Positions 17,708 to 44,510 of a stretch of DNA of 44,515 nt are shown here, one piece after another. The position numbers and the translations under genes are program-made. Each line of letters opens with the position of its first letter. Within the stretch, counting starts at the first letter, position 1. This DNA is from Acidipila sp. (lineage in GTDB: Bacteria > Acidobacteriota > Terriglobia > Acidiferrales > UBA7541). Where the stretch lies: contig JAAFGT010000009.1 of the NCBI GenBank assembly GCA_010365215.1, positions 92,449 to 136,963 on the forward strand. The letters are read 5' to 3'. A model generated the notes under the pieces. The model saw nothing but the letters and a program-made list of their open reading frames with translations, was not told the DNA's origin and did no database searches.

Positions 17708-20104
17708 CTACTTGTGTTTCATGACGTAGACGCCGTCCCATTGGGGGTCGGGTTCCTCGAGCAGGAACTCTTCGCAGCGGAAGAAGAGGACGCGGGAGGG
17801 CACGTCATCGGGCCAGCGTTCGAGAACTTTGGCGAATGTGGTTTGCGCCTGGCGCCAGTCGCGGCGCTTGTAGAAGGAACGCGCGCGGGAATAGAGCTCG
17901 ACGCGCTCCTGTAGTTCGCTGCCCTCCTGGCGGTAGCCCAGCAACTCGAAAATGGTGACGGGCTGTTCTTTCCCCTTCACGCGAATTACGTCCACTTCGC
18001 GAAAAATAAAATCAGGAGAACGCGCCGCGCGGAAGGCAAATTCGGTGAGCAGGATGCGCGTGCCGTATTCCTTGTTGAGGCCTTCCAGGCGCGCGGCCAG
18101 ATTCACCGCATCCCCGATGGCGGTGTAGCCGTAGCGCAGGTTCGAGCCCATGTTGCCGACCGAGGCCATGCCGGTGTTCAGGCCGATACCGATGTCGAGC
18201 AGCGGCAGGCCGTCGCGCTTCCAGATTTTCTGCAGCTCGGTGAGCTTGGCGAGCATGTCGAGAGCGGCGCGAGCGGCTTTATGCGCGTGGCCGGAATCTT
18301 CAAAGGGCGCACCCCAGAAAGCCATGACCGCGTCGCCGATGTATTTATCGAGGGTGCCCTGATTGCGGAAGACGATGCGGGTCATATCGGTGAGATAGCC
18401 GTTGAGCAGGTCGGCGAGCTTCTGCGCGTCGAGTTTTTCGGAGATGCTGGTGAAGCCGCGAATGTCGCTGAACAGGATGGTGATCTCCTGCTTGCGGGGC
18501 TGCACCAGTTCGGGGCTGGTGAGCACGCGGCGGATGACTTCCGGGCTGACGTATTGCTGGAAGGCGCCGCGCACCCTGCGCTTTTCGCGGTCCTCCACCA
18601 GCACGCGGTAGAGAGAGACGAGCATGGTGTTGGAGAGCAGCACCAGAGTGGGCAGGGTGAAATTGAGCCACCAGCCGTGAATAAACGCGAACATTACCGC
18701 GGCGGCGAAAGGCAACTCCAACAGCAGCGCCAGGGGCATCCACTTGGGCTGCGTTACGGCCAGCCACAGCCCGAGCGGCACGCCGAAGAAGAAAATCAGC
18801 AACAGGTCCACGCCGATCTGCGTGACGTCACGCTGCAGAAACCGCTGATTCAAAATGTTATCTATGACATTCGCGTGAATCTCCACGCCGGGATAATTGA
18901 TAGAGCTGAAGGGAGTGCTGCGCAGGTCGCCGATGCCGGTGGCGCTGGCGCCGACCAGAACAATCTTGTCTTTAAAAGTGCCCGGCGGGAAAGTGTGATT
19001 GACCACATCGGCGATGGAGACGTAAGGGAAAGTCCGCACGGGACCGCGAAAATTGATCATCACCCGGCCGATATCGTCGGGCACAACGATAATCGAAGAG
19101 CCAAATTCCAAATTTTCGATGCCGGACGACCCAAAGTTCAGAATCATCTTCTCGTTGGGCAGGCCCAGGTAGTAACGCACGGTCTGCACGTCGATGGAGG
19201 CGTAAATATCCCATTCGGAGCGGTTCTTGGAGCGTCCAAACGGTATGGCCAGGTTGGCGCGGCGCACGATACCGTCCGGATCCGGCCAGACGTTGAAAAA
19301 ACCGGTGGACCCGCGGTCTCCGCCAAGAGCGTCGGTCAGCGGTTCGATGTTGGCCTCGGCGCCGAGGGGCAAAATTTCCTGCTCATCGAATTTCTGAATC
19401 ATGTCGAGAAAGCTTTTCGCGCCCTCCGCGGAGTGTGCCGCCCGCGCTTGGGGGTAGGGAAAGTAAGCCAGGAGACGAGCGTAGCGATCGAGTGTGGCGT
19501 CATCCAGACCTTTCAAATCTGCCTGAGAACTGAAAAAGAAGTTTCCTAATACCACGCTGCCCATGCGCTTAATGGAGTCGGCAAATTGCTGGTCGGCGTT
19601 AAATTCCTTCTCGAGGTCGACGAGAGCGGATTCCAGGCGCGGGTCGATCTTCTGGCCCTGCTTCTGCAGCAGGCGCGCGCGCAGTTCGCGTAACGGCCGC
19701 ACCGAGTCGTCCGTTTTGCTGAAAGTGATGTCGAAACCTGCCACGCGCGCACCATCGTCGTGCAAGGCATCGAGCATTTTGGCAAAATTGGAACGGGAGA
19801 AAGGCCAGCGGCCGAGAACTTCCTGGGCGCGTTGATCGATGTCGACAATTACGATGCGGGGGTCGGGGCGGGGCGCCTGGAAGCGCGGCCGCAAAAGAAA
19901 GCGCGCGTCGAGCGTGGAATATTCCAGGCGTGTAAGCAGATTGGCGGTGGCCGCGTTTCTTTCTCCTACCAACACATAGTAGTAAAGGAAAAAACCCAGA
20001 AGGGTTACGACCAGGCTGATGAGCAGCGACATGCGCTGGCGCCACAGCGTGCCGAGTGCGGAGCCGAACAGGCTTCCGGGTGCGTCTGGTTTGCCGTCGG
20101 CCAT
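17708..20104 (-). CDS. CHASE2-domain class III adenylate/guanylate cyclase
   Basis: A 798-residue receptor cyclase. Order: TM at about 24-45; extracytoplasmic CHASE2 domain at about 55-420, with the conserved KDKIVLVGASATGIGD and PGVEIHANVIDNIL stretches; three TMs at about 428-450, 456-476 and 480-502; cyclase domain at about 535-700; then a short TPR-like tail. Catalytic residues are complete: metal-binding Asp547 (FSDIRGFT) and Asp591, purine-specifying Lys587 and Thr661, and transition-state Asn668 and Arg672. A Lys/Thr pair is the usual bacterial ATP-selecting set, so cAMP is the likely product (inference). The ATG at 20104 has GGAGAGG about 14 nt upstream. It lies 32 nt after the FHA gene. 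The ligand is unknown. Confidence 0.92.
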   Translation of the reverse strand: MADGKPDAPGSLFGSALGTLWRQRMSLLISLVVTLLGFFLYYYVLVGERNAATANLLTRLEYSTLDARFLLRPRFQAPRPDPRIVIVDIDQRAQEVLGRWPFSRSNFAKMLDALHDDGARVAGFDITFSKTDDSVRPLRELRARLLQKQGQKIDPRLESALVDLEKEFNADQQFADSIKRMGSVVLGNFFFSSQADLKGLDDATLDRYARLLAYFPYPQARAAHSAEGAKSFLDMIQKFDEQEILPLGAEANIEPLTDALGGDRGSTGFFNVWPDPDGIVRRANLAIPFGRSKNRSEWDIYASIDVQTVRYYLGLPNEKMILNFGSSGIENLEFGSSIIVVPDDIGRVMINFRGPVRTFPYVSIADVVNHTFPPGTFKDKIVLVGASATGIGDLRSTPFSSINYPGVEIHANVIDNILNQRFLQRDVTQIGVDLLLIFFFGVPLGLWLAVTQPKWMPLALLLELPFAAAVMFAFIHGWWLNFTLPTLVLLSNTMLVSLYRVLVEDREKRRVRGAFQQYVSPEVIRRVLTSPELVQPRKQEITILFSDIRGFTSISEKLDAQKLADLLNGYLTDMTRIVFRNQGTLDKYIGDAVMAFWGAPFEDSGHAHKAARAALDMLAKLTELQKIWKRDGLPLLDIGIGLNTGMASVGNMGSNLRYGYTAIGDAVNLAARLEGLNKEYGTRILLTEFAFRAARSPDFIFREVDVIRVKGKEQPVTIFELLGYRQEGSELQERVELYSRARSFYKRRDWRQAQTTFAKVLERWPDDVPSRVLFFRCEEFLLEEPDPQWDGVYVMKHK

Positions 20105-20136
20105 CGAATGCGGAGCCTCTCCGGGAGCGCCGGGCG

Positions 20137-20862
20137 CTAGTCTTTGTAGACGAAGCTCAGCTTGACGTTGCCCAATTCGATGGTGTCGCCGTCATTGAGG
20201 CGGGCGGCGCCGTGGATGGGCTGACCGTTGACCACGGGAACCTTGTCGGCGGTGCCGATGTAGTAGCCGTCATCGCGCTTATTAATTTGCGCGGCGACTT
20301 TAGGCGCGAACCATCCGCGCAGGCGCACGGTGGCCATCTCGGATTTGCCGATGACGGTAAGCTTGTTGGTGAGCAGATATTCCGACTGGTCGGTCTTGCC
20401 GCTCAAAATGACGAGCGTGGGAATGCGGACGCGAGTAGGAACGGATTGCTGGGTGCCTTCGCCGGCGGCGGCGAGCATGTCGCGGCGCTTTTTGGTGTCG
20501 AGCACCATGGTCTCTTCCATCTTGGGCATGACCGGCTTGGGAGCGCTGGCCGCACCATGGAGAGGCGGGACATCGGCCTCGCCGCGGACCTCGATGGTGT
20601 GCTTGCCTACCAGCACGATGTCGCCAGGCTTGAGGCTGAGGCGCTTGACGCGCTGATTGTTGACGAATGTGCCGTTCATGCTGTTGAGGTCTTCGACGAC
20701 CAGCTTGCCACCCTCATTTACGATTTTGGCGTGGTGGCTGGAGACGGCGAGATTATCCACCTGGATATCGTTGTCCGGGGCGCGGCCGATGGTCAGCGGT
20801 TCGACGCCTACATTCACTTCCTTGAGCACCGCTGCCTCGTATTTCAGGATGAGCTTTGCCAT
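20137..20862 (-). CDS. Double FHA-domain protein
   Basis: A 241-residue cytoplasmic adaptor. FHA1 (about 1-95) keeps the phosphothreonine-binding set: Gly26-Arg27, Ser41/Ser42 with His43/His44, and Asn63-Gly64-Thr65. A Pro/Ala-rich linker follows. FHA2 (about 150-240) has the fold pattern, and its NG is retained in VVNGQPI, but GR is changed to GK and the SxxH loop to FAPK. FHA2 is therefore probably not a classical phosphopeptide binder. The ATG at 20862 has a strong TAGGAGG whose TAG is also the stop of the PP2C gene, 12 nt away. Placement between a phosphatase and a cyclase suggests it reads kinase output and passes it on (inference). Confidence 0.88.
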   Translation of the reverse strand: MAKLILKYEAAVLKEVNVGVEPLTIGRAPDNDIQVDNLAVSSHHAKIVNEGGKLVVEDLNSMNGTFVNNQRVKRLSLKPGDIVLVGKHTIEVRGEADVPPLHGAASAPKPVMPKMEETMVLDTKKRRDMLAAAGEGTQQSVPTRVRIPTLVILSGKTDQSEYLLTNKLTVIGKSEMATVRLRGWFAPKVAAQINKRDDGYYIGTADKVPVVNGQPIHGAARLNDGDTIELGNVKLSFVYKD

Positions 20863-20874
20863 GGACGGATCCTC

Positions 20875-21690
20875 CTAAGAGCCTGAACCGCCGAGCCAGC
20901 GCATGAAGCGAGTCCACGGGCCGTGCGATTCCCTTACGATACGAATAGCCACTGCGGTAACGTTATCCTCGCCGCCGGCATCATTGGCCGCTTCGATCAT
21001 GCGATCGACGGCCTCTTGCGAATTGAGCGAGGTGAGCAGCGCGCTGGCGATGCCCGCGTCGGTGACCATGCGGCTGAGGCCATCGGAACAGAGCAACAGA
21101 GTGTCGCCCTCAATCAGAGTGTGCTCGTCGGCATCCACCTGCACGGTAGCATCGATACCCAGAGCGCGGATCAGCACGCTTTGCATCTCACTTTCGTCGG
21201 CCTGCTGCTGGGTGAGAATGCCGCGGCGAACCTGCTCGGCAACCAGAGAATGATCCTGGGTGAGTTGCTCGAGAGCGCCGCCACGCAGCCGATAGGCGCG
21301 GCTATCGCCCACGTGGGCCAAGCTCATGCGCGAGCCATCGAGCCATACCGCCACGACGGTGGCGCCCATGCCGCGCTGCGCCGGATGCTTCTGCGCGGAT
21401 TCATAAATCATGCGATTGGCCAGTTGAATGGAGCTGGCCAGACGGTTGGTCCTTACCCCCAGATCCGCCACGGCGCCTTCGAGCAGCGGCAGCTTGGGAT
21501 CCAGCAGAGAATCGCGACAGTGCTGGGCGATGGCTTCGACGGCCATGCGGCTGGCGATTTCGCCGTGCGCTTCGCCGCCCATGCCGTCGGAAAGAATGTA
21601 GAGTCCGAGCTCCGGCAAGACTTCGAAGGAGTCTTCGTTATTTTTTCGGACGCGACCCAGGTCGGTGCGCGCCCCAGCGTCAATTCGCAA
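20875..21690 (-). CDS. PP2C-type Ser/Thr protein phosphatase
   Basis: A 271-residue PPM/PP2C phosphatase of the stand-alone bacterial (PstP/Stp1) type. Metal and active-site motifs are present: RTDLGRVRKNNEDS (8-21), SDGMGGEAHGE (34-44), HVGDSRAYRL, LCSDGLSRMV and GGEDNVTAVAI. The start is TTG at 21690, giving MRIDAGARTDLGRV. It is preferred because the family N-terminus begins there, the upstream frame overlaps the kinase gene and reads as a nonsense Arg/Ser-rich stretch, and a GGATAGGAT purine tract precedes it. It is 8 nt after the kinase stop, so translation is probably coupled. The likely job is to reverse the phosphorylation made by the kinase upstream. Confidence 0.88.
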   Translation of the reverse strand: MRIDAGARTDLGRVRKNNEDSFEVLPELGLYILSDGMGGEAHGEIASRMAVEAIAQHCRDSLLDPKLPLLEGAVADLGVRTNRLASSIQLANRMIYESAQKHPAQRGMGATVVAVWLDGSRMSLAHVGDSRAYRLRGGALEQLTQDHSLVAEQVRRGILTQQQADESEMQSVLIRALGIDATVQVDADEHTLIEGDTLLLCSDGLSRMVTDAGIASALLTSLNSQEAVDRMIEAANDAGGEDNVTAVAIRIVRESHGPWTRFMRWLGGSGS

Positions 21691-21698
21691 GCCCGATC

Positions 21699-24272
21699 CT
21701 ATCCGACCACCGGCTCCAGAGCAGCAAGAGCCTTGCGCAGGTCGGCAGCCATCTCTCCCGCTTTCTGATAGCGCTTGGCGGGATCTTTCTCGAGCGCACG
21801 GTCGATCACCGCTTCGATGGATTCGGGAATGGCCGGGTTGACTCCCCGAGCGGAGCGGTGAGGCTCGTTGGTGATCTGGTAGATGAGTGTGGCAACGGAA
21901 TCGCCGTGGAAAGGCTTTTCGCCGGTGAGCAGCTCGAACAGGCATGCGCCCAGCGAAAAAATGTCGGAACGGCCGTCAACTTTTTTACCGGCAAGCTGCT
22001 CGGGCGACATGTAGCTGGGCGTGCCGAGCACGGTGCCGGTGGCCGTCCTGGACTGGTCGGTGATGCGGGCGATGCCGAAATCGGTGACTTTGATGACGCC
22101 GTTTTTGAGCATCATCAAGTTGGCGGGCTTGATGTCGCGATGCACCACGTTATTTTCGTGCGCGTAATCGAGAGCGTCGGCCACTTTGGCGACGGCATTT
22201 ACGACTTCGCGCAGAGGATGGAGGTGGCCTTTGGCGCACCAGGGCTTGAGGTCGGCGCCGTCGAGCAGCTCCATGGCGATGTAGTTGATGTCCTGATCTT
22301 CGCCGGCATCGAAAATGTTTACGATGTTGGGGTGCGTGAGCCGCCCGGCGGATTCCGCTTCGCGGAAGAAACGCTCTTGAAGGGCTTTGCGATCTTCGGG
22401 GCTGAGATCTTCGTCGTCGAAGCGCAGCGTCTTAATGGCCATCTGGCGATTGATCTTGGGATCGCGGCCCAGGAACACCGTGCCCATAGCGCCTTTGCCC
22501 AGCTCGCGGATGACTTCGTAGCGGCCGAGGGTGGGCTTCACGTCCGTGCCGCTGGTCATCATGACGGTGGACTCGACGCTGCGGCCCTTCTTGAGGCCGG
22601 CGGTGCCGCTGATCTGCGTTTCACCCATGGCCCGCAGCTTCTCCATGCGCTCACGGATATCCTTGAAATTTCTGTCTGCGGAGGCGATGTGTTCCAGGAC
22701 CGCGACGGACTTGTTGAACTGGCGTTTGCGCTCGAAGTCCAGTGCCAGGTTGTAGAGCGTATCCTTCATTCCCGCATCCACCGGGACGCGGCGGAATTTC
22801 TCCCAAGCCATGTCCAGCATGCCCTGGCCCTGGAAGGAGAGACCCAGCATTTTCAGAGTCTCCACCGACTCGGTCTCCAGCGTTTCCTTGGCGCGCTCGG
22901 TGCCGAAGTAGCGCTTGGAAACAACGACCACGTAACCCAGGACGAGCAGGAGCGAGGGATACATCATCTCGATCCAGTAGCCCTTGGAACTGAACAGCCA
23001 GAAAGAAGTGGCGCCGAATGCGCCCAGAAGGACGAAGGCGATGGCCGCGCTGATGCCTGCGGGAAGCAGCGGCAATCCGAGAGTCACGAAGAGGGCGAAC
23101 AACAGCATAACGCCCAATTCGAGGTTGCGGGCCCAGGGCGGGCGAGTGATGAACTTGTTGTGCAGAACGTTCTCGACCACATTGGCAAAATACTCGACGG
23201 CGGGGAGAGTGGCGGAGACGGAAGTAGCGCGCTGCTCGCCGAGCCCGGTGGCGGTGAAGCCCACGAGCACGATCTTGCCCTTGAAATTTTCCTTGGTGAC
23301 TTTGTTCGTGACCACGTCGACGAAGCTGAAATGGGGGAAAGTTTTTACGTCGCCGTTGAAGTTCACCAGCATCTGGTAGTGCGAGTCGGTGGGAACCAGG
23401 CGGTTGCCCACCTGGACGCCGTCGCCTTTGGGAAGAATCTCGCCGGGATCGAGGTTGAGATAGACGCGCGCGATCTGCAAAGAAAAAGATGGGTATTCCT
23501 TGCTGTCGTATTCCACGACCAGGGGCTGGCGGCGGATGGCGCCGTCGCGCTCGGGAATCCAGTTGATGTGGCCGATGGCTTTGGCTTCTTTGGCGAAGCG
23601 GTCGATGGGTGGGACGATGCCCTTGGCATCGAGGTCGGTGCCTTTGAGCTTAGACTCCGCGCCGGGCAGCGAATTTTTGAGGATGTCAGCGGAGGGAGGC
23701 TGGTCGGGGCGGCCCAGCGGAGGGCCGGGCAAGCCAAAATTCATAGCCAGCACGGTGTTGCCGGCGAGGGCGATGGAATCGGCCAGGCGCGCGTCGTTGT
23801 CGAGGCGCTTGCCGGTATCGTCAAAAATCTTCTGGAACTGGCCGAAGAAACGCTGCGACTGCGCGCGCTCTTTTATCGCCTCTTTCTCAAACCTCATCCC
23901 CGACTGCGCCTGCTGGAACTGTTTGCGGAGATCGCGCACAGCTTCCAAGCCGGGATTAATCTCCGCATCGGAGTAGAGCAGATCGAGGGCGATCACTTTG
24001 GATTCGGCTTCGGAGAGCTGGTCAACCAGTTGGCCCATGTAAGCGCGCGGCCAGGGCCAGCGGCCTATCTGGGAGATGGAAGCATCGTCCACGGCGACGA
24101 TAACGATTTCGTCGCCGACCTGACGATTGGCGCGAAGCTTGGCGCGCAGGTCGTACAGTTTTAGTTCCAAGGTGTCGATAGGGCCGACACCCATGTACAG
24201 ACCCAGCAGCATAACCAGCGACACGGCAGCCCCGAGAATTACGTCCACCACCGGAAATTTTCGATCAGCCAT
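21699..24272 (-). CDS. CHASE2-domain receptor Ser/Thr protein kinase
   Basis: An 857-residue transmembrane kinase. Order: TM (about 10-29), extracytoplasmic CHASE2 (about 39-385, with GKIVLVGFTATGLGEQR and AVEYFANVVENVL), a cluster of TMs (about 390-465), a TPR-like helical linker (about 475-560), and a Hanks-type kinase domain (583-850). All kinase motifs are intact: glycine loop GKGAMG 592-597, Lys614, His711-Arg712-Asp713, Asn718, DFG 731-733 and TPSYMSPEQ. Most bacterial receptor kinases have the kinase at the N-terminus; here the sensor is N-terminal and the kinase C-terminal. The ATG at 24272 is the only plausible in-frame start, although the best GGAGG is about 35 nt upstream. It is the first gene of the signalling operon. 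Confidence 0.93.
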   Translation of the reverse strand: MADRKFPVVDVILGAAVSLVMLLGLYMGVGPIDTLELKLYDLRAKLRANRQVGDEIVIVAVDDASISQIGRWPWPRAYMGQLVDQLSEAESKVIALDLLYSDAEINPGLEAVRDLRKQFQQAQSGMRFEKEAIKERAQSQRFFGQFQKIFDDTGKRLDNDARLADSIALAGNTVLAMNFGLPGPPLGRPDQPPSADILKNSLPGAESKLKGTDLDAKGIVPPIDRFAKEAKAIGHINWIPERDGAIRRQPLVVEYDSKEYPSFSLQIARVYLNLDPGEILPKGDGVQVGNRLVPTDSHYQMLVNFNGDVKTFPHFSFVDVVTNKVTKENFKGKIVLVGFTATGLGEQRATSVSATLPAVEYFANVVENVLHNKFITRPPWARNLELGVMLLFALFVTLGLPLLPAGISAAIAFVLLGAFGATSFWLFSSKGYWIEMMYPSLLLVLGYVVVVSKRYFGTERAKETLETESVETLKMLGLSFQGQGMLDMAWEKFRRVPVDAGMKDTLYNLALDFERKRQFNKSVAVLEHIASADRNFKDIRERMEKLRAMGETQISGTAGLKKGRSVESTVMMTSGTDVKPTLGRYEVIRELGKGAMGTVFLGRDPKINRQMAIKTLRFDDEDLSPEDRKALQERFFREAESAGRLTHPNIVNIFDAGEDQDINYIAMELLDGADLKPWCAKGHLHPLREVVNAVAKVADALDYAHENNVVHRDIKPANLMMLKNGVIKVTDFGIARITDQSRTATGTVLGTPSYMSPEQLAGKKVDGRSDIFSLGACLFELLTGEKPFHGDSVATLIYQITNEPHRSARGVNPAIPESIEAVIDRALEKDPAKRYQKAGEMAADLRKALAALEPVVG

Positions 24273-34739: not shown

Positions 34740-37700
34740 CTAGAAATTAATCTTCAGTCCGAACTGTATGGTGCGCGGATCGTTAGCCGCCGTGGGCTGG
34801 CCGGCAAAACAGGTGGTGCTGGCGCCGGGATCGCACAACGGGTTTACGTCGCCAACATTGAAGCGATTGAAGAGGTTGAAGGCGTCGGCGATGACTTCCA
34901 GGTTGAGGCGCTCGGTAGCATAAAACTTTCGCGAGACGCGCAAGTCCCAGGAAGCAAATCCTGGCCTGGTGAATGTATTCCGGCCCGAGTTACCGGTGCA
35001 GCCTGCCGGAGGAACGAGGCCGGGGATGAAGGGCGTGGGGCACACGGTGGGAAGGCTGAAAATGGTGCCTTTGATGAATGGCGAAGTAGCCGTGCCCGGG
35101 CCGGCGGTGGAGACGATGGACGGCCGGTCGGTGTTGGAGCCGAAGTCCAGGTTGTAGTCCGTGCCGGTGAGCACGGTATACGGCCGGCCGCTGGAAAATT
35201 CGATCAGCGGCGCGAAGGTCATGTCGGCCACCAGCTTGTGGAGGAAACCGGAATCGCGCCAGTGGTAGGGGCTTTCGAGCACGCCGCTAAAAACGAAACG
35301 GTGGCGCTGGTCGAAGGTGGAGTTGCCGCGCTCCAGGTCGGGACGATTGTTGTTCTGCGGCGCGAGCAGCGTTTGCAGGTCGGTGGAGTCGTCAATGGCA
35401 TGCGACCAGGTATAGCTGGCCAGAAACTGAACGTGCTGCGAGAAGCGCTTTTCGAGATTGAGGGTCAGTCCATGGTAGGCGCTATTTCCGGATGACTCCT
35501 GCTGGAGCACGTCGCTAAAGGGCACGATCAGGCCAGAGGTACCGGTTGGGTAGCCGGCAATCGCCGCGATTCCTACTTCACTGCCGGGGGTGGTGGGCGT
35601 GCCATAGCCGGCGGGGAAAAGTCCCGCGAAGGAAGGATTCGGGCCGCTGGGGCGGAAGAAATTGAAAATTGCAGCGGTGGAGACGAAACCGCCGTTTAAT
35701 GCCGCGATGGGGCAACCGCTTAGGACTCCCAGGGCGTTAGGCGCGATCACGGTGATGCCGCAAGTGGTGGGAGTGGGAGCAACATTCATGGACGGGGCCT
35801 GCACAGTGACGGGACTCGAAAAGACGCGTCCCGCCGCCGCACTATTGGCGAAATTTGCGACCATGGTGGCGGGGTTACTGGTGTTGACGTTGCGCGGGCG
35901 ATTGAGATGCGTGCCGCGGCTAAAGGTGTAGGACGCACTGGCTTTGAAGTCCCTGCCGAGGTTTCGCTCGATGGTCAGATTCGCCTGTTGCGAATAGCCA
36001 AACTGAAAATTGCGCGCCACGGGTAGAGTGAACGGCAAGATGGGCGTGGGGAAACCGGCGGCAATGTAGTTCTCGTTGATGAACACGGAATTCGGATCTT
36101 TGGGATTAAACCGCTGCTGCGAGGCTACGTAGGGAATGGTGAATGGGAATCCCGCGGGCGTGGCGGTATTGAGCACGCCTTGGAAGAGGGAGCCGGCATT
36201 CAGGTTTCCCGGAGTATCGCGCGCGCCGCCGCATACAGAAAAAATCACGCTAGGAAAGACTCCGCAGGCCGAAGGCGCGCCGCCCGCGGCGATAAGCTGC
36301 GAGGAGCGCGCGCCATCCGCGGTGGTGGAATCAAACGCGATGGCCAGCAACGGATGGTCATAATAAATCCCGTAGCCGGCGCGCACTACCGTCTTGCCAT
36401 CTCCCCAGGGATCCCAAGCCACGCCTATTCGCGGCTGGATGCCTTTGTGGAATACGGGGATTCCCTCGAGCACACCGAGCGCTCTTTCCGCGGCGGCGTT
36501 CGTGGCATTGGCGGGAGTGAAGGTGGGAGTAAATTCGATGTCATAGCGCACGCCGTAGTTCACCGTAAATCGCGGACTCATGCGCCAGCTATCCTGCACG
36601 AAAAGCCCTAGGGCTTTATTGTCCAGCGGGCTGTTGGAATTTCCCACGCCCTGAATGAAATTCTGTGGCAGGCCGAGGCCGTAGGCCTGGATTGCCGAGA
36701 ACTGCGGGAGGCCCGAGACGCCGGGCATACCCATACTGGCCAGAATTCCGTTGACCACGTTGTCGGCGCCGATACTTCCAAAGTTAAAGATGCCGCCGAA
36801 GTTGAGCTCGAAGATCTGCGTCTTCTTGGAGCGCAACTGAATCAGGTTGGTGTCGACGCCGGTCTTGAGGGTGTGGTGGCCGAGGACGTAGGTGACGTTG
36901 TCAGTCCACTGGAAGCGGCGCTCGATGCGATCCACGGTGGAAAAGGGCTCGCGTCCGAAGAACGCGAAGCCGGTGATATTCACGGCCACCTGATCGCCGC
37001 CAGGCAGTTGCGAAAAGCCGTAGTGCAGGCCGCGCCGCGCGAACTGGAAGCGAAATTCATTGAGAAGATTGCTGGTAAACGAGGTGGTGTGCTGAGCGAC
37101 AATGGCCAGATCGCGGTACTGATTGAGCGAGGTGCGCGAGCCGGCATTTTGCCCGAAATTCTGGTTCTGCGCGTTCACCTGGATGCCGGTGACCAGCGAG
37201 GGCGAAACGTTTACGCGCAGCAAGCTGCTGTTCTGGGAATTCCAGATGTGGTCGATGCGCGCAGACCACAGGCTGGTGGCTTCTTTAATGGGATAGTTGC
37301 CGATCAAGCTGGAGAGCGGAACGAACGACGCGGGTCGCGGCGCCAGGCCGATCCCGCCCGGACCGCATGGAATGGGCGAGAGAGTCAGCGGCGCGCAGGA
37401 TACCGGCAGCGGGAAATGCGCGCCGGGCATGCCGGAGATCAGACCCGGATCGATCCCGGTACGCGCGAAGAGTGAACTGGACGCCGCTACACCGGTGTAG
37501 ATGGCCTGCACGTTCGCGGGGAAAGCGGCCAGCGCGGCAGCCTGCGTTGCGGTAAGGCCAGTAGTGGGGCTGGAGCCGTCAAAGTTGTTGCCGCCGATGT
37601 CGGTGAAGCCGGTCTCGTGGCGCCGCGTGCCTTCGTAGGAGAGAAAATAGAAAGTTTTATCCGTCTTAATGGGACCGCCTAAGGTGGCGCCGTACTGCGC

Positions 37701-38582
37701 ACGGGTGTAGGCCTGCTTTATGCCCACCTGATTGCCGGTGAGCGGATCGATCCGCACGGAGAAGGGGTTGCGCGCCTGCAGGCTCTTGTGGCGGAGAAAG
37801 CCGAACACGTCGCCGTGCACTTCGTTGGAGCCGCCCTTGGTGACGATGTTAATGACGCCACCGGTGGCGCGGCCGAATTCCGGCATGTAGTTGCTGATGA
37901 TGAGCTGGAACTCCTGCACCGCCTCCTGGGAAACGGTGGAGCGGATGCCGTTCACGGAATTGTCGCCGGCGTCGGCGCCATCGACGGAAACCTGGTTGGA
38001 ACGCGCGCGCTGGCCCCCGAAATTGAGGCCGCTAGTGGGCGCGGCGCCGATGGAGGGGGCGCTATCGCGCGCGGCTTGTGAATTGATGAGCGTGAAATTG
38101 ACGTAGTTGCGGCCATTGATGGGGAGATTTTCGATCTGGCGCGTGTCCACAGTTTCGGAGACGGCAGTGCGCCTGGTCTCAATGAGGTCGGCGGAATCGG
38201 TGACGGTGACCACCTGGGTGCCGCTCTGGATGGTCAGATGGCCGTCGAAGTGAGCAGCTTGGCCGATGGTGAGCACAAGCTCGGGGTTCACCAGTTTTGC
38301 AAAGCCCGGCTTCTCCATGGAGAGCTCGTAGCGGCCTGGCGGCAAGCCGACGAAGGTGTAGCTGCCTTCGTCGTTGGTCTCCACGGTGCGCGAGCCTCTC
38401 GTGGCCAGATTTGTGACGGTGACTTTCGCGCCGACCACCGCAGCGCTCTGCTGGTCCAATGCTTGGCCCGAGAGATCCACGGCATTCGATTGGGCAAGCA
38501 TCGGGGCAAACATCGGGCTCACCGTCAGCAAGACGATCAGCAAAGCGCATAGAAGGACCAGAGTGCCGTTGAGCGAGCGCAT
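34740..38582 (-). CDS. Oar-like TonB-dependent outer-membrane receptor
   Basis: A 1280-residue outer-membrane protein. A signal peptide (about 1-30) precedes a carboxypeptidase-regulatory-like Ig fold (about 34-115: DLSGQALDQQSAAVVGAKVTV, DEGSYTFVGLPPGRYELSM). The plug domain follows (about 125-260, VSETVDTRQIENLPINGRNY, NQVSVDGADAGDN, GRATGGVINIVTKGGSNEVHG), then a long beta-barrel ending RTIQFGLKINF, whose terminal Phe is the BAM signal. Such receptors are abundant in Acidobacteriota and import large substrates with TonB energy; the ligand is unknown. The ATG at 38582 has AAGGAGAT 7 nt upstream. It stands alone between a terminator-like hairpin and its own promoter, with no SusD-type partner nearby. 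Confidence 0.93.
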   Translation of the reverse strand: MRSLNGTLVLLCALLIVLLTVSPMFAPMLAQSNAVDLSGQALDQQSAAVVGAKVTVTNLATRGSRTVETNDEGSYTFVGLPPGRYELSMEKPGFAKLVNPELVLTIGQAAHFDGHLTIQSGTQVVTVTDSADLIETRRTAVSETVDTRQIENLPINGRNYVNFTLINSQAARDSAPSIGAAPTSGLNFGGQRARSNQVSVDGADAGDNSVNGIRSTVSQEAVQEFQLIISNYMPEFGRATGGVINIVTKGGSNEVHGDVFGFLRHKSLQARNPFSVRIDPLTGNQVGIKQAYTRAQYGATLGGPIKTDKTFYFLSYEGTRRHETGFTDIGGNNFDGSSPTTGLTATQAAALAAFPANVQAIYTGVAASSSLFARTGIDPGLISGMPGAHFPLPVSCAPLTLSPIPCGPGGIGLAPRPASFVPLSSLIGNYPIKEATSLWSARIDHIWNSQNSSLLRVNVSPSLVTGIQVNAQNQNFGQNAGSRTSLNQYRDLAIVAQHTTSFTSNLLNEFRFQFARRGLHYGFSQLPGGDQVAVNITGFAFFGREPFSTVDRIERRFQWTDNVTYVLGHHTLKTGVDTNLIQLRSKKTQIFELNFGGIFNFGSIGADNVVNGILASMGMPGVSGLPQFSAIQAYGLGLPQNFIQGVGNSNSPLDNKALGLFVQDSWRMSPRFTVNYGVRYDIEFTPTFTPANATNAAAERALGVLEGIPVFHKGIQPRIGVAWDPWGDGKTVVRAGYGIYYDHPLLAIAFDSTTADGARSSQLIAAGGAPSACGVFPSVIFSVCGGARDTPGNLNAGSLFQGVLNTATPAGFPFTIPYVASQQRFNPKDPNSVFINENYIAAGFPTPILPFTLPVARNFQFGYSQQANLTIERNLGRDFKASASYTFSRGTHLNRPRNVNTSNPATMVANFANSAAAGRVFSSPVTVQAPSMNVAPTPTTCGITVIAPNALGVLSGCPIAALNGGFVSTAAIFNFFRPSGPNPSFAGLFPAGYGTPTTPGSEVGIAAIAGYPTGTSGLIVPFSDVLQQESSGNSAYHGLTLNLEKRFSQHVQFLASYTWSHAIDDSTDLQTLLAPQNNNRPDLERGNSTFDQRHRFVFSGVLESPYHWRDSGFLHKLVADMTFAPLIEFSSGRPYTVLTGTDYNLDFGSNTDRPSIVSTAGPGTATSPFIKGTIFSLPTVCPTPFIPGLVPPAGCTGNSGRNTFTRPGFASWDLRVSRKFYATERLNLEVIADAFNLFNRFNVGDVNPLCDPGASTTCFAGQPTAANDPRTIQFGLKINF

Positions 38583-38869: not shown

Positions 38870-41431
38870 TTAGTCTTTCGAGAGGCCCTTGAGGATACGC
38901 CGAAGTTTTTCGCGGTCTTCGGAAGCCATGTGGACGAACTCAATGCCTGATCCATCCGATTGGATATTCCGAACCACGGCGAGCGAATGAATGGTACGCA
39001 GACCGCTCTTGATCTCCACCGGAAACGAATCGCCGACCTGGAGGCGGCGGGAGGACTGCAGGCTTGCACCGCCCATGCTGATGGTGTTGACGCGGGCGGA
39101 AGCGGGCTGCGGCCCTGCAATTCGCGCTCGCCAAGGGCTCTCGAGGGGGTAGCGCGGATAGCGCCGGGGCCGCGCGAAAGTGACGTTGGAGGAAGGAGCG
39201 GGCTCGCCGTCTTGGGATTGGCGGGCTGTCGGGGCACGCCCTTCGAGCTGGTAGAGGGCCTCTTCGGCGGCGGCGCGAAGTCCGGCGGGCTCGGCATAGC
39301 TAAGGCCGTTGCGCTTGCGCAAAATGGTGCGCAGCAGGAGGGCGGCTTCGACAGCGCGCATGCGGCCCAAGGCTTCAATGGCCTTGATGCGGATGAAGAG
39401 ATCGGTGACGCGTTCGTTTTCGCCCGCGGCAATTTCCAGCAAATACGGAACGCAAGCTGGATCGCCGTCGGCGGCGAGCTGGTCGATAATCATGGGCACT
39501 ACGTGGAGATGAGCCTGCGGCAGTATCTGAAGCAAAACCAGCGCGAGGCCCGGCACGTTATTACGCGCCAGCTCGGAGATGGCCAGGTCTTGAATGCTCC
39601 AGTCCCAAGCAGGTAGTGCCTGGGGAAGGGCTTCCAACAGTTCCTGCGGGCGCGTCGAGCCAAGAAGTTTTACCGCAGCGGTGGAGCGGCCGATGCGCTT
39701 GTCAAAAACGCGCTTTACCAGGGCCTGCACTGCGCTGTCGCCGATGGTGCGCACCAGGCGGACCATGGCAGGCAGGGCATCGAGCGCGGTTCCCGCGGAC
39801 TCGGCCTGTGCCGGGGAAAGCAGCGCGGTGAGGCATTCCAGAAGGCGGTCGGGGTCGCGCGCCAGCAGGCGCACCAGGCTGGCGTCGAGTGGGCGACGTT
39901 CCAGGGCGCCGGCAACCAGCGTATCCCAATGCTCGCCCTCAAACAGGTTGCGCTCGATCAGACGGAGATGGTCGTGATCGGAGCTCTGCGGGCAGCGCGC
40001 GAGGGCCTGCGAGACCTTTTCATATTCCGCATAGCGGCTCTTGCTGAGCGCGGCGAGCGCCAGGCGCTCGACTACGGAGACAAGCAGCGCGGCCACAGCG
40101 GGCTGGCGCTCGGCGATCAGGGCATCCAGAATCGCGCGGCCAAATTCTTCGGGTAACTGCTCGGGCCAGAAGCGAGTGAGCGTATCGCCCAGATCGGAAA
40201 GACCCGCAGCCGTGGCCTGGCGTGCCGCCGCGTCGGGCGAAGCGAGGCAGCGCGAGTAGGCCATCAGGGCGGAGCGCGCATCGCGCATGCCGCTGGTGGT
40301 GTTAGCCTGCTCGAGCAGCGCGCGGAGGATCGGCGTGGGCACAGCCCAGGCCTCCTCAGATCGCAGCGCGTCGTTGAGCTCCTTGGGGGACAGCTCGGAC
40401 CAAAAGATCAGTTCAAATTCCGCCGCTCCACTGTCATGCCCCCAGCTCTGAACCTGCCCCAGCAGGGCATGATGGATGTTTGGAAGGGCGGCTACGGCGC
40501 GGCCAAGCCGAAGCGCGAAATCGCGCACGGCAGAAACAGGGAGCCTTCCAGCGCGAAATTCGGCCACCGTGAAGCTGACTGCCATCTCTTCGGCAAGGCG
40601 GGCGAAGTACACCTCCAGCGTCTCTCCGGAACCTTCTCTCGGCGGGTGCAGGTCCATGATGCGGGCGAGCAGCAGCATGGCGGGGCGTTCGGCCGCGGAC
40701 AAGGCGCGCTCTAACTCACGCGCTGCCTCCCGCGCGGCGTCGGAGGAAGAAGCGCTGCCCGCCGGCAGAATCCTGACCAAGGCATCGAGAAGCTGGAAGG
40801 CTGAGACCAGACCTGCTTCGCCCGGCTCCGCCGAAGATTCTGGGGGCGTCTCCCCCGGCGCGAGTTTTACGCGCTGTTCGAGCATGGCCGCGAGGATTCG
40901 CGGGAGCATGGCGTCGGCGCGCGTTTCAGTGACGGGTTGATTGACGCGAATCGCGGCGATGCGTCGCGCGGCCAGCCATTCCTGCCAAGCCGAGACGGAG
41001 CTTCTCTCGCGGGCCGGATCGGCCGCGGGCGGATTCTCGAAAACTTCAGCGAAACTGAGCAACTCGCCGGCATGTGTTTCACGGTCAAAAACAACGGCGG
41101 TAATCCCGCGGCGGAGCAGGTCCTCGGAAAGCGACTTCATCTCACCGCGCGAATCGCCAAGCGCGCGGCCGCGGAAGAGCACCTGGCCGCGCTCGACGGT
41201 TACGGCGAGGAAACCACCGCCGGCCAGCGCGTCGTGCAGGCTGCGTTGCGCGGCGTCGAGACTCTCTTCAATTTTCGGATGGTCGTGCAGATAGAGCCGC
41301 CGTGAGCGGCCGAGAACGTGGAGGGAAAGCAGAAAGCGGCTGGCTGCCGCTTCGGGTGCAGCCGTCTCGCGCGCGGCGCGGCGACGCACATTTCCCTGAG
41401 GGACGCCCAATCCGGGAGCCCTGACCGTCAT
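38870..41431 (-). CDS. HEAT-repeat-like protein with a C-terminal PilZ domain
   Basis: An 853-residue soluble protein. The N-terminal 200 residues are alpha/beta and mention-worthy only for RFLLSLHVLGRSRRLYLHDHP, a stretch seen in proteins that measure early reading of small domains; no function is clear. Residues about 200-740 are all-helical HEAT/ARM-like repeats (for example AVAALLVSVVERLALAAL and VTDLFIRIKAIEALGRMRAV). The last 100 residues (754-853) are a PilZ domain: RPRRYPRYPL supplies the arginines, and TISMGG stands where the D/NxSxxG motif is expected, with Thr in place of Asp/Asn. PilZ domains bind c-di-GMP, so binding here may be weakened. The ATG at 41431 has AGAGG 9 nt upstream. 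It is co-directional with the FHA-cyclase gene, 238 nt downstream of it. Confidence 0.8.
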   Translation of the reverse strand: MTVRAPGLGVPQGNVRRRAARETAAPEAAASRFLLSLHVLGRSRRLYLHDHPKIEESLDAAQRSLHDALAGGGFLAVTVERGQVLFRGRALGDSRGEMKSLSEDLLRRGITAVVFDRETHAGELLSFAEVFENPPAADPARERSSVSAWQEWLAARRIAAIRVNQPVTETRADAMLPRILAAMLEQRVKLAPGETPPESSAEPGEAGLVSAFQLLDALVRILPAGSASSSDAAREAARELERALSAAERPAMLLLARIMDLHPPREGSGETLEVYFARLAEEMAVSFTVAEFRAGRLPVSAVRDFALRLGRAVAALPNIHHALLGQVQSWGHDSGAAEFELIFWSELSPKELNDALRSEEAWAVPTPILRALLEQANTTSGMRDARSALMAYSRCLASPDAAARQATAAGLSDLGDTLTRFWPEQLPEEFGRAILDALIAERQPAVAALLVSVVERLALAALSKSRYAEYEKVSQALARCPQSSDHDHLRLIERNLFEGEHWDTLVAGALERRPLDASLVRLLARDPDRLLECLTALLSPAQAESAGTALDALPAMVRLVRTIGDSAVQALVKRVFDKRIGRSTAAVKLLGSTRPQELLEALPQALPAWDWSIQDLAISELARNNVPGLALVLLQILPQAHLHVVPMIIDQLAADGDPACVPYLLEIAAGENERVTDLFIRIKAIEALGRMRAVEAALLLRTILRKRNGLSYAEPAGLRAAAEEALYQLEGRAPTARQSQDGEPAPSSNVTFARPRRYPRYPLESPWRARIAGPQPASARVNTISMGGASLQSSRRLQVGDSFPVEIKSGLRTIHSLAVVRNIQSDGSGIEFVHMASEDREKLRRILKGLSKD

Positions 41432-41632
41432 CTCGCGACCTCTTTTTTCCCCAAGGGAAAGTTGCTGCTGCTCCCACGGAGGAACCCAAGCTGCGGGCGA
41501 AGCTTCTTGTATACCTAAGGTAGAGCACGCCCAGTGCCGCCCAGAATGAGGCTACAGGATGGCATTTACAAGAGGTTGGCTGGCCGGGGCGAACGAAGTG
41601 GTTACCGCATGAGGCAACGAAGGGAGGAAAGG

Positions 41633-41642
41633 TTACCGGTAA
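41633..41642. promoter_or_regulatory. Perfect palindrome TTACCGGTAA in the gap before the HEAT-PilZ gene
   Basis: The 10-bp palindrome lies about 200 nt upstream of the HEAT-PilZ start. A half-site GTTACC recurs at 41601-41606. It may be an operator; no regulator family can be named. Confidence 0.3.
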
Positions 41643-41669
41643 GGAAGCCGGGCTTCTGGCAGGCGCTGG

Positions 41670-43382
41670 TTACTTGGTACTTGGGGGCGATGGCGGAGGA
41701 CATTCTTGCCAAATAACTTCGTAGACGGCGATGGGGGCGGACTTGCCTTTGACGCGGATGGGCTCGAGCATACGCACGGGCAGGACGCCGCCGAGCTCTT
41801 CAAACGTGGCCGCGGAGATGAGGATCTGATCGGGCGCGGCGCGGGCAGTGAGGCGCGAGGCTACGTTTACCACGTCTCCGATTGCGGTGTAGTCCATGCG
41901 CCGGGACGCACCGATGTAGCCGACGACGGCTGGGCCCGAATTAATGCCGATGCCCATGCGCAGCGGCCGCTGGAAATCGCGATTGAGCTGCACCAAGGTA
42001 TGCTGCATATCGATGGCGGTGCGCACGGCGTTGATCGCGTCGTGCCCCGTAGAAAATGGCGCACCGAAGAGACACATCAGGCCGTCGCCGAGGAATTTGT
42101 CGAGGGTGCCTTCGCGTTCGAAGATGCGCTCGGTCATAGCGCTGAAGTAGTCGTTCAGGATTTCAACGGTCTGCTCGGAAGTCATGGTCTCGGCCATGGA
42201 CGTGAAATCGCGGATGTCGGAAAAGAGGACGGTGACCTTTTGGGATTCGCCGCGCAGCTCGATGTTGGCGGCCTCGCTGGCGATTTTTTTTGCGATGCCC
42301 GGCGAAAGGAAGCGCTCGAGAGCGTTGCGCTGAATAATCTGCCGGGCGACTTCCTGGCGAGTGGATACGCGATCGATGGAAAGCCCGGCTTGCGCGGCGA
42401 TGACACTGAAGACATTCAGATCTTCCTGCGAAAACATCCCACGCTTCACCAGGTTGTCCACGTAGAGCAACCCGTAGACCTGAGCGCCGCTGCGCAAAGG
42501 CGCGCACATGGCGGACTGCATGCCGGAAAGAGCGATGCTGCGGCTGGAGCCCAGGAGCGAGTCGGAGCGCGCGTCCCGCACCAGTAGCGGCACGCCGCCT
42601 TGCAGCACGCGCTGGATGATGCTTTGCGAAAGAATCATCTGCGTGCCGTGCGTCGCCGGGTTGGAGTCGCGATAGCGAATCACCGCGGGCAAGAATCCAC
42701 CTTTGCCGTCGAGCAACATGGCGTAGCCGCGCTCCACTCCTTCCACCTGCAGGGCCAGATCGAGCACCTGCTTAACGACCTCTTCGATGGAGACCAGTTC
42801 TGCGAGAGCGCGGCTCACCTGGTAGAGCAAGGAAAGAAGCCGGTTCTCGTGTTCCAGGGCCTTCAGGCGCTGCCCGGCGACGGCGGTCGCGTTGGTCATC
42901 TCGCCGAGGTCGGCGGAATCGCCCGGCGCGGGAGCGGGCGAGATCGTCGCGCGCGAAATAGCTCCCGCTGCGGACGGAGGTGGCTGGACGGACTCGGCAA
43001 TCTGCAGAGCGGCAGAAACGTCTTTCATGCTCATGACCATGGTCAAACGCGCGGGCATGCTGGCGGCGTGGGTGAGGAGCAGATGAGATTCCAGCGATTC
43101 GAAACGCACGCTGTAAGAACCGATGCTCAGAAGATCGTTGTTCTTGAGCGACGCTTCGCGGACTACGTGGCCATTCAGCACCACGCCATTGGCGCTGCCA
43201 AGATCGGTGAGCTGCCAGGAACCATTCGGGCCGGGAGATAGAACCGCGTGCTGGCGGGAAACGCTGGTTTCGCGGAGCACCAAATCATTCGTCTCGGCGC
43301 GGCCCACATGGACAGGCCGGTCCGGCGGCAGCTCGAACACCTGCTGCTCCTGTCCGGATTTTTCAATGACCAGGCGAGGCAT
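41670..43382 (-). CDS. FHA-GAF class III adenylate/guanylate cyclase
   Basis: A 570-residue soluble cyclase. FHA (about 5-98) keeps Gly27-Arg28, Ser42 and His45 and Asn65-Gly66. A Pro/Ala-rich linker and a short coiled coil follow, then GAF (about 185-345) and the cyclase domain (about 380-555). The catalytic set is complete: Asp389 and Asp433 for metals, Lys429 and Thr499 for purine choice, Asn506 and Arg510 for the transition state. Lys/Thr predicts ATP as substrate. The FHA can dock a phosphothreonine, and the kinase encoded 6 nt upstream is the obvious source. The ATG at 43382 is the only sensible start. The protein ends in a Pro-rich tail. Confidence 0.92.
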   Translation of the reverse strand: MPRLVIEKSGQEQQVFELPPDRPVHVGRAETNDLVLRETSVSRQHAVLSPGPNGSWQLTDLGSANGVVLNGHVVREASLKNNDLLSIGSYSVRFESLESHLLLTHAASMPARLTMVMSMKDVSAALQIAESVQPPPSAAGAISRATISPAPAPGDSADLGEMTNATAVAGQRLKALEHENRLLSLLYQVSRALAELVSIEEVVKQVLDLALQVEGVERGYAMLLDGKGGFLPAVIRYRDSNPATHGTQMILSQSIIQRVLQGGVPLLVRDARSDSLLGSSRSIALSGMQSAMCAPLRSGAQVYGLLYVDNLVKRGMFSQEDLNVFSVIAAQAGLSIDRVSTRQEVARQIIQRNALERFLSPGIAKKIASEAANIELRGESQKVTVLFSDIRDFTSMAETMTSEQTVEILNDYFSAMTERIFEREGTLDKFLGDGLMCLFGAPFSTGHDAINAVRTAIDMQHTLVQLNRDFQRPLRMGIGINSGPAVVGYIGASRRMDYTAIGDVVNVASRLTARAAPDQILISAATFEELGGVLPVRMLEPIRVKGKSAPIAVYEVIWQECPPPSPPSTK

Positions 43383-43388
43383 TTGGAG

Positions 43389-44510
43389 TTACGGAGCGGG
43401 CGCCGGCGAGGGCGAAGGCGGCGGCGGCGGCGTAGTCAGGGTGGGCGCGCTACGCTGCAACAGGTCGTGGATATGTATCCAGGAGAAATACCCGGCGGTG
43501 CCAAGAACGAGAAATACCACGAGTGCCAACCAGAGCTGTGCCGACTTTTTCCGCTGCGATTGCGCCGGAAAACGCCCGCGCGGCGAAGACATCGGACTCG
43601 CGGTTGCGGCCACGCGGCTCGTAGCGGCAGGCACCCGCTTGGTAGCAGACAACTGGCTGCCGGCAACCTCACGATAGCCGCGCAGCGCCTTGAGTAAATC
43701 GCCGCAAGTCTGGTAGCGGGTGTCGGGGTCCTTCGCCAGAGCTTTTTTGATGACCGCGTTCAGACCGGGATGCAGCGAGGCATCCAGCTCGATGGGCGGG
43801 ATGGGATCTTCGTTGACGATTTTGTAGATGACCGTGGTGACGTTTTTTCCGGGAAACGGTTTTTCGCCAGTGACCAGCTCGTAAAGAATGACGCCGAGCG
43901 AGAAGATGTCGGCGCGGCCGTCGACGGGCCGGCCTTTGACCTGCTCGGGAGACATGTAGCTGGGAGTGCCTATGAGGTGCCCGGTTTCGGTGCTGCCGAG
44001 CTCAAGAATTTTCGCTGTGCCGAAGTCGGTAATTTTCAGGTTGTCGAGCTCACCTACCAGAATGTTGGCAGGCTTTATGTCGCGGTGAACGATGTTGCGC
44101 TGGTGAGCGTAATCGAGCGCGTGGCAAGCCTGCTCCATCACGCGCAACAGACGCGGCACCGGGAACGCCTGCCGGTCTTCTATCATGGCCAACAGGCTGC
44201 GGCCGGGGACAAACTCCATGGTGATATAAAAAAGATCGTCCCCCTGCAGAGCCGAACCGTCAGAACCGGCATCGTAAATGACCACGATGTTGGGATGGCT
44301 GAGCAGCCCGGCGGCACGCGTCTCTGTTTGGAATCGCGCGAGCAGCTCCGGACGCGGGGTGTCTCCGCCCAGATCGTCGATCCGCATAATTTTCACCGCT
44401 ACGGTGCGGCCGATCAGCGGGTCAAGGGCTTTGTATACGACGCCCATTGCGCCGCGGCCGATTTCGCCCTGCAACTCATAGCGTCCGGCTTTGTGTAGAG
44501 GTGTGGTCAT
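43389..44510 (-). CDS. Transmembrane Ser/Thr protein kinase (PknB-like)
   Basis: A 373-residue Hanks-type kinase. The kinase domain covers about 10-280 with glycine loop GRGAMG 18-23, Lys40, His142-Arg143-Asp144, DFG 162-164 and GTPSYMSPEQ 181-190, all intact. A Ser/Ala/Arg-rich juxtamembrane linker follows, then one TM (about 324-343) and a short extracytoplasmic tail ending in Pro-rich PPPPPSPSPAPAP. No sensor domain is present outside, unlike the CHASE2 kinase. The ATG at 44510 opens the canonical GRYELQGEIGRGAMG region, but only 5 nt of upstream DNA is in the window, so the ribosome-binding site cannot be checked. It is followed after 6 nt by the FHA-GAF cyclase gene. Confidence 0.92.
   Translation of the reverse strand: MTTPLHKAGRYELQGEIGRGAMGVVYKALDPLIGRTVAVKIMRIDDLGGDTPRPELLARFQTETRAAGLLSHPNIVVIYDAGSDGSALQGDDLFYITMEFVPGRSLLAMIEDRQAFPVPRLLRVMEQACHALDYAHQRNIVHRDIKPANILVGELDNLKITDFGTAKILELGSTETGHLIGTPSYMSPEQVKGRPVDGRADIFSLGVILYELVTGEKPFPGKNVTTVIYKIVNEDPIPPIELDASLHPGLNAVIKKALAKDPDTRYQTCGDLLKALRGYREVAGSQLSATKRVPAATSRVAATASPMSSPRGRFPAQSQRKKSAQLWLALVVFLVLGTAGYFSWIHIHDLLQRSAPTLTTPPPPPSPSPAPAP

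Follow-up and report, generated by a model that had tools for sequence, protein, structure and literature searches.

A recurrent gene pair of a PknB-like kinase and a predicted FHA-GAF-adenylate cyclase in Terriglobia suggests a link from protein phosphorylation to cAMP

Introduction

Bacterial Ser/Thr kinases and cAMP have mostly been treated as separate systems in research, and signalling genes, although common in Acidobacteriota, have been studied in few cases. A locus of an uncultured acidobacterium, lying at one end of the 44,515-nucleotide stretch of DNA analysed here as a whole (the window), raises the question of whether the two systems may be joined directly, with a membrane kinase controlling a cyclase that reads its phosphothreonine. 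A preliminary description of this locus proposed a recurring link of this kind, with c-di-GMP as a possible third input. No earlier description of a kinase-FHA-cyclase operon was found in the open-licence literature.

Results

Open reading frames and Pfam matches bore out the reported row of three genes on the minus strand, comprising a PknB-like Ser/Thr kinase (43389-44510), an FHA-GAF-cyclase (41670-43382) at the reported spacing of 6 nt, and a PilZ protein (38870-41431) after a further 238 nt. The kinase and cyclase genes share one reading frame, with the junction TAA-CTC-CAA-ATG. The kinase ATG lies 3 nt from the contig end; alignment of relatives backs this start, and the kinase promoter is outside the visible sequence. 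No terminator or promoter was found in the 238-nt gap by a consensus scan, which says little for this phylum, and alignment of the gap with two relatives revealed no distinct element at a mean column identity of 72%. The 4.1 Mb genome contains 36 stretches matching Ser/Thr kinases (some genes being split over two rows), ten cNMP-binding stretches and 14 GGDEF domains. It contains only three class III cyclases in total, two of them within the window, and the pairing with a kinase recurs in other families; on these genomic grounds the pairing of kinase and FHA-GAF-cyclase is more than chance.

The kinase (373 aa; Pfam Pkinase E 6e-55) contains the HRD, DFG and VAVK motifs of a Hanks-type Pkinase domain with predicted activity, and its nearest solved structure is PknB. 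Its description as a transmembrane protein was confirmed, with one membrane helix at aa 327-345 (43476-43532; mean hydropathy 1.9 over 19 residues). The activation-loop Thr pair aligns to that of PknB, and Thr174 (43989-43991), equivalent to PknB Thr171, is a candidate FHA docking phosphosite. In the kinase tree, which excludes three long-branch kinases (L114, L122 and L039, whose placement in another tree was unsure), the window kinase domain falls among the operon kinases; support is 85/97 for the group as a whole and 100/98 for its placement with those of G006 and G018, two genomes of one other genus. The window copy lacks the PEGA-containing periplasmic half, which a profile picked up in all 28 remaining orthologues of the alignment and Pfam confirmed in three.

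The second gene encodes a predicted class III adenylate cyclase of 570 aa with an FHA domain at aa 25-88 (43119-43310; Pfam E 4.7e-17), a GAF domain at aa 198-337 (42372-42791; Pfam GAF_2 E 9.5e-14) and a catalytic domain at aa 380-549 (41736-42245; Pfam Guanylate_cyc E 3.7e-28). The FHA domain keeps the GR, SxxH and NG phosphothreonine-reader residues, a motif named in PMC1262709. Its closest PDB relatives are the FHA domains of Rv1747, EmbR and GarA, and the G, R, S and H residues are intact in 50/50 FHA-GAF-cyclases. The catalytic domain retains D389, K429, D433, T499, N506 and R510, and the corresponding D, K, D, T, N and R are likewise intact in all 50. In class III cyclases D389 and D433 correspond to the metal-binding Asp residues, K429 and T499 to the base-reading pair, and N506 and R510 to the transition-state pair. 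PDB matches of the AlphaFold2 model were CyaC, Cya2 and CyaB, and the structure search placed the catalytic domain at 36-39% identity to those of CyaB of Pseudomonas, CyaC of Spirulina and Cya2 of Synechocystis, all of them class IIIb enzymes. By its PDB title Cya2 is a guanylyl cyclase, whereas the Lys/Thr pair of the window protein suggests ATP as substrate. The protein is probably a class IIIb adenylate cyclase making cAMP, judging from these residues. It differs from CyaB, CyaC and Cya2 in having its input through FHA and GAF domains and a kinase in its operon.

Neighbourhoods were drawn from one survey of 20 out of 179 matching genomes, mostly high-scoring full-length matches spread over families, and from another of 45 matching genomes, of which 34 were newly fetched, the rest being covered by earlier neighbourhoods and the own genome by the window. 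The resulting set comprises 50 FHA-GAF-cyclase loci, nine of which lie too near a contig end to be scored for neighbours; four further loci (L206-L209), in which the cyclase gene runs off a contig or is broken over several frames, stand outside it. An orthologous kinase lies upstream of the cyclase gene on the same strand, 5-842 nt away, in 18 Terriglobia loci from three families (f1, f6 and f11), and all 18 kinases fall, together with kinases paired with PilZ genes, into the single group described above. Across these families a kinase was present within 1 kb in 19 of the 21 loci with enough context, the nineteenth being divergently oriented and outside that kinase group. The usual kinase form has the periplasmic PEGA half, and a secreted coiled-coil protein is often encoded between kinase and cyclase. 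Outside Terriglobia a kinase was found within 1 kb in 1/16 determinable loci, and inside Terriglobia 6/25 loci had none, indicating that an adjacent kinase is not required by every such cyclase. These gene neighbourhoods indicate that the co-conserved unit is the kinase with the FHA-GAF-cyclase. The suggested recurrence is supported by gene order and intact residues, and it reaches beyond this organism to three families of Terriglobia.

Co-conservation of all three genes, as the preliminary description implied, was not borne out. Only the window genome, G006 and G018 have both a cyclase and a PilZ gene beside the kinase, and a single co-conserved three-gene operon was rejected in favour of a kinase-cyclase and a kinase-PilZ pair overlapping in three genomes. 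Kinase-PilZ pairs were present in 14/17 loci, 11 of them without a cyclase, and by this distribution the PilZ protein partners the kinase separately, at the family level. A search with five FHA-GAF-cyclase queries of the G001/G013 gap between the secreted-protein and PilZ genes (1.6 and 1.1 kb) found no relic of a decayed cyclase, the best match (E 0.006) being on the wrong strand and to be set against 0.036 in shuffled copies.

At the position of PknB Thr171, Thr is present in 18/18 cyclase-linked kinases versus 2/11 cyclase-less orthologues at fixed spacing, or 4/11 in a gapped alignment that also places a Thr of L130 and L131 in the column. Among nine further kinases of the genome, eight have this Thr too, making it the default at that position. 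The contrast stems from one clade of nine kinases, which includes L130 and L131, and therefore represents one or two events.

The protein described as HEAT-PilZ (853 aa) ends in a PilZ domain at aa 756-848 (38888-39166; Pfam E 5.2e-11), but Pfam gave no HEAT match in the window protein. The AlphaFold2 model (mean pLDDT 80.9) consists of helical repeats followed by a PilZ beta-barrel. Its PDB matches to HEAT/ARM proteins are weak, with TM values reaching about 0.3, and the G018 orthologue has a HEAT_2 match just under the cut-off. The PilZ part of the name stands, and on the modelled structure the N-terminal part is probably a HEAT-like helical-repeat region.

Discussion

The observed domains, intact residues, conserved gene order and shared kinase ancestry form the basis for reading the kinase and the FHA-GAF-cyclase as a dedicated relay, in which a kinase phosphothreonine would dock the FHA domain and tune cAMP synthesis. 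We consider this reading somewhat better than evenly supported, and from that basis we infer that phosphorylation and docking take place, which way the effect runs, which nucleotide is produced and what the output is. The membrane kinase would autophosphorylate its activation loop (in the window copy at Thr174, Thr176 or both), and the cyclase would be brought to it by FHA binding of that phosphothreonine or of another site phosphorylated by the kinase. Through the GAF domain and a helical linker the combined signal may then reach a homodimeric class IIIb adenylate cyclase, whose cAMP would serve some of the cNMP-binding proteins of the genome. Since the periplasmic half of the window kinase is gone, control of this copy would likely be cytoplasmic or constitutive. 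Counted against the relay are this missing sensory half, the cyclase loci with no kinase nearby, the default status of the activation-loop Thr and the chance that the FHA partner is another of the many kinases of the genome.

In mycobacteria PknB-type kinases likewise occur beside FHA effectors, namely GarA, Rv1747 and EmbR, partners of mycobacterial Ser/Thr kinases; here, by contrast, the effector is an adenylate cyclase. The sensor of the mycobacterial PknB-type kinases is PASTA, whereas the usual sensor here is PEGA. Myxococcus Pkn2 also couples a Ser/Thr kinase physically to a class III cyclase-like domain, although as a single-chain fusion with a GC-like Glu at one base-reading site and with no FHA domain named in the accessible text (PMC1262709). 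In Mycobacterium ulcerans the genes of the kinase PknQ and the FHA protein MupFHA lie close together, as here, and the kinase is reported to dock on MupFHA through activation-loop phosphosites; that pair is plasmid-borne and comes without a cyclase (PMC4238996).

Kinase and cyclase might instead simply be co-expressed in answer to the same condition, with the FHA domain reading another kinase or phosphoprotein, for which the 36 kinase matches offer candidates. This is rather unlikely: a near kinase is indeed missing from 15/16 determinable loci outside Terriglobia, but three families all keep this one orthologous kinase upstream and the phosphothreonine-binding residues do not decay. A reverse direction, with the FHA-GAF protein acting chiefly on the kinase by blocking or localising it and cAMP being secondary, has a precedent in the suppression of PknQ autophosphorylation by MupFHA reported in PMC4238996. 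A sister branch also keeps FHA-GAF without a cyclase (six genomes placed in a tree, and more such found). However, no kinase was present in the stretches examined around these cyclase-less proteins, giving no sign of control over a neighbouring kinase, and the catalytic residues are kept throughout the cyclases, making this direction of control very improbable.

Decay or mis-assembly of the window copy, with assembly collapse or recent deletion at proline codons having removed the tail of the kinase along with the secreted-protein gene known from the nearest relatives, would account for a kinase of 373 aa, read as 374 in the alignment, where 28/29 aligned kinases have 619-838 aa, and for a proline-rich kinase/cyclase junction about 1.1 kb from the contig end. 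Against this, the secreted protein, absent from the window locus, has no match in the own genome while the same query matches G001, G006, G013 and G018 strongly; no own-genome kinase match extends past residue 372 of a 767-aa relative; and both remaining genes are open with their residues kept. We regard such a loss as improbable. Direct input of c-di-GMP through the PilZ protein, as envisaged in the preliminary description, could draw on the GGDEF domains of the genome and on an RxxxR motif kept in the window protein and in 14/14 orthologues, and Myxococcus PixB, lacking the second-motif Ser, still binds c-di-GMP in vitro according to PMC8316039. However, the second motif, [D/N]xSxxG, reads TISMGG in the window protein, with Asp/Asn in 0/14 and Ser in 10/14 orthologues, and a gap of 238 nt sets the gene apart, which in most of its loci has no cyclase beside it. 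The missing Asp/Asn in particular makes this input doubtful, and we consider it unlikely.

Returning to the relay, recurrence of the pairing in related families suggests a putative direct phosphorylation-to-cAMP switch. A fuller history, possible but offered only tentatively, is that a PknB-like receptor kinase recruits its dedicated FHA-GAF-cyclase via the activation-loop phosphothreonine and so turns envelope sensing into cAMP. Such a phosphothreonine-gated cyclase would have been assembled once in Terriglobia, the docking Thr drifting after loss of the cyclase and FHA-GAF outliving the cyclase in the sister branch, and the window organism may have shed the receptor half to leave a switch driven from inside the cell. 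The conserved operon offers a small expressible pair for testing phosphorylation-controlled cAMP synthesis and a starting point for functional work on signalling in Acidobacteriota. Natural variants are on hand, comprising kinases with or without the sensor half, FHA-GAF proteins with or without the cyclase, and kinases with or without a cyclase neighbour.

The locus had also been said to mirror a first set in the window (17708-24272, minus strand), which consists of a CHASE2-kinase, a PP2C phosphatase missing from that account, an FHA protein and a CHASE2-cyclase. The likeness holds for layout, and FHA is a separate protein in the first set and fused to the cyclase in the second. Identities of 38-47% and different sensors led to the rejection of a recent duplication of the first set: its kinase shares 47% identity with the G006 orthologue of the second-set kinase, the cyclase domains of the two sets share 38%, and CHASE2 in the first set stands against PEGA/GAF in the second. 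In five relatives the kinase-PilZ pair lies on the same contig as the PP2C and FHA genes of the first set.

Linkage of kinase and FHA-GAF-cyclase genes in Terriglobia

ORF and Pfam analysis confirmed that a kinase (43389-44510), an FHA-GAF-cyclase (FGC; 41670-43382) and a PilZ protein (38870-41431) are encoded in a row on the minus strand, as the preliminary description had it. To survey linkage, annotated neighbourhoods were inspected at 50 loci where a single ORF carries all three domains, FHA, GAF and cyclase. Among 31 Terriglobia loci a kinase gene lay within 1 kb in 19, was absent from six and was undeterminable in six, compared with one, 15 and three, respectively, of the 19 loci from other classes. 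The difference between determinable loci (19/25 versus 1/16) gives a Fisher p of ~1e-5, which is descriptive only because the loci are related by descent. The single kinase outside Terriglobia (L122) is on the opposite strand and one Terriglobia kinase (L038) is divergent. The suggested recurrence of kinase-FHA-cyclase neighbours was thus borne out in Terriglobia by 18 same-strand upstream kinases, orthologous by tree, which form one group with the kinases of kinase-PilZ pairs (85/97). Branches of families f11, f6 and f1 nest inside this group, and within f1 a branch (92/84) separates the cyclase-less kinases from the others. The simplest reading is a single ancestral kinase-FGC pair in Terriglobia that would later have been broken in most f1 genera. 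Genes 3' of the kinase-FGC operon at three f6 loci (L182, L184 and L207) encode a trypsin-like protein, an unknown protein of 650-670 aa and an FHA protein with a zinc ribbon. Also nearby is the gene for an ABC transporter, in which Pfam identified three FHA domains (on L182) and which adjoins a PP2C gene in L207.

The window kinase has a complete catalytic domain (HRD, DFG and VAVK in an alignment of relatives), followed by a proline-rich linker, one membrane helix and a stop. At 373 aa and without PEGA domains it is the sole exception among 29 aligned kinases, the other 28 being 619-838 aa long with PEGA. When the genome was queried with the long kinase of genome G006, 36 matches were obtained, none extending past query residue 372. 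The short kinase is most simply explained by a real deletion, although an assembly collapse could also have produced it. The window ends with contig C25, placing sequence 5' of the kinase outside view. The kinase stop and FGC start are 6 nt apart and share a frame: TAA is followed by two codons and then by the ATG of FGC (43383-43391), such that stop read-through would yield a kinase-FHA-GAF-cyclase chain of ~946 aa. Unlike the window, G006 and G018 have the gene 5' of FGC out of frame.

Properties and distribution of FGC

Pfam identified FHA, GAF and class III cyclase domains in FGC. An AlphaFold2 model (mean pLDDT 79.4) has a catalytic domain matching CyaC, Cya2 and CyaB structures, and by profile search the closest solved FHA domains are those of Rv1747, EmbR and GarA. 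In 50/50 FGC proteins the cyclase residues Asp389 and Asp433 (metal), Lys429, Thr499, Asn506 and Arg510 are invariant, as are Gly27, Arg28, Ser42 and His45 of the FHA domain; FHA Arg43 and Asn65 are present in 49/50. The usual residue rule links such cyclase residues to homodimeric class IIIb enzymes with ATP as substrate. Because these residues are conserved, FGC is predicted to be an enzyme of this kind with a phosphothreonine-competent FHA domain.

Matches to FGC at E 1e-45 or better, including partial ones over GAF and cyclase only, were found in 179/396 genomes sampled phylum-wide, and matches at 1e-60 or better, some to FHA-GAF only, in 45/399 genomes of the class (Terriglobia, Acidobacteriota; placement by taxonomy). 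The architecture is therefore common across the phylum and patchy within the class. Of the class III cyclases in the genome, the third (G000:C63:23969-24472, L005) lies within a 747-aa ORF, and profiles recognised no kinase or FHA in the surrounding 12 kb.

FHA-GAF proteins stopping just before the cyclase were found at L040-L045 and L201-L205 (genomes G003, G015, G026, G031, G014, G025, G554, G653, G664, G582 and G602). In an FHA-GAF tree those of genera g3 and g4, 42-43% identical to FGC (tblastn), are sister to FGC of g1 and g7 (99/98) and fall among proteins of the class that carry the cyclase (98/97), so the simplest reading is that the cyclase was lost. The stretches fetched around their genes yielded no kinase. 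For the six placed in the tree (L040-L045), sister to the cyclase-bearing form, the FHA-GAF reader seems to have outlived its enzyme.

Candidate docking residue

The activation-loop position aligned to PknB Thr171 was located by counting back from Gly-Thr. Thr occupies it in 18/18 FGC-linked kinases versus 2/11 kinase-PilZ orthologues without FGC; a gapped alignment shows Thr in that column in two further kinases of these eleven. Loss of the Thr is confined to a single clade of nine kinases, and most other kinases in the genome carry Thr there. This Thr is a suggestive candidate docking mark, not proof of docking. The best reading is that the kinase would autophosphorylate and the FHA domain recruit the cyclase to it, altering cAMP output. 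Observation extends as far as the conserved gene pair, with the later steps drawn by analogy with PknB/FHA systems. PknQ-MupFHA, as far as described in the available text of PMC4238996, provides the other basis. Each half of the arrangement has a precedent, clustering of FHA genes with kinases and the kinase-cyclase fusion Pkn2 both appearing in the available text of PMC1262709.

PilZ protein and neighbouring genes

Modelling and structure comparison indicated helical repeats in the third protein and a PilZ barrel at its C-terminus. A same-strand kinase lies upstream within 2.8 kb in 14/17 orthologue loci; upstream sequence is limited to 0.2 kb at L128 and 1.2 kb at L136, and at L139 no kinase was found in 4.1 kb. 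The expectation that all three genes form one co-conserved set failed, FGC being absent from 11/14 kinase-PilZ loci. RxxxR is present in 14/14 orthologues, and the second motif has Asp/Asn in 0/14 and Ser in 10/14. The PilZ domain may still bind c-di-GMP, because Myxococcus PixB lacks the second-motif Ser yet binds c-di-GMP in vitro, according to the available text of PMC8316039. GGDEF domains gave 14 matches in the genome. Downstream of the PilZ gene, 34740-38582 encodes a large TonB/Oar-like outer-membrane protein, a counterpart of which was found near the PilZ gene in L037.

Between kinase and FGC, G006, G018 and several f6 loci encode a secreted-looking protein of 220-255 aa that has a coiled-coil region and weakly resembles FlgT_C. 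Examples of such a protein are at L182:10147-10812, L037:10248-10937 and L126:12768-13412; a search of the window genome gave no match. The secreted-protein and PilZ genes are separated by 1.1-1.6 kb (L126:11148-12767, L127:3180-4265), parts of which are conserved between the two genomes (73-83% identity); an FGC relic was sought in this stretch and none was found.

The first set (17708-24272, minus strand) includes PP2C and FHA genes that in five genomes share a contig with the kinase-PilZ pair, downstream and in the same orientation, inside fetched stretches in G023, G004, G016 and G034 and on two stretches of one contig in G001. The two sets are therefore parts of one conserved signalling neighbourhood and not a coincidence of this window.
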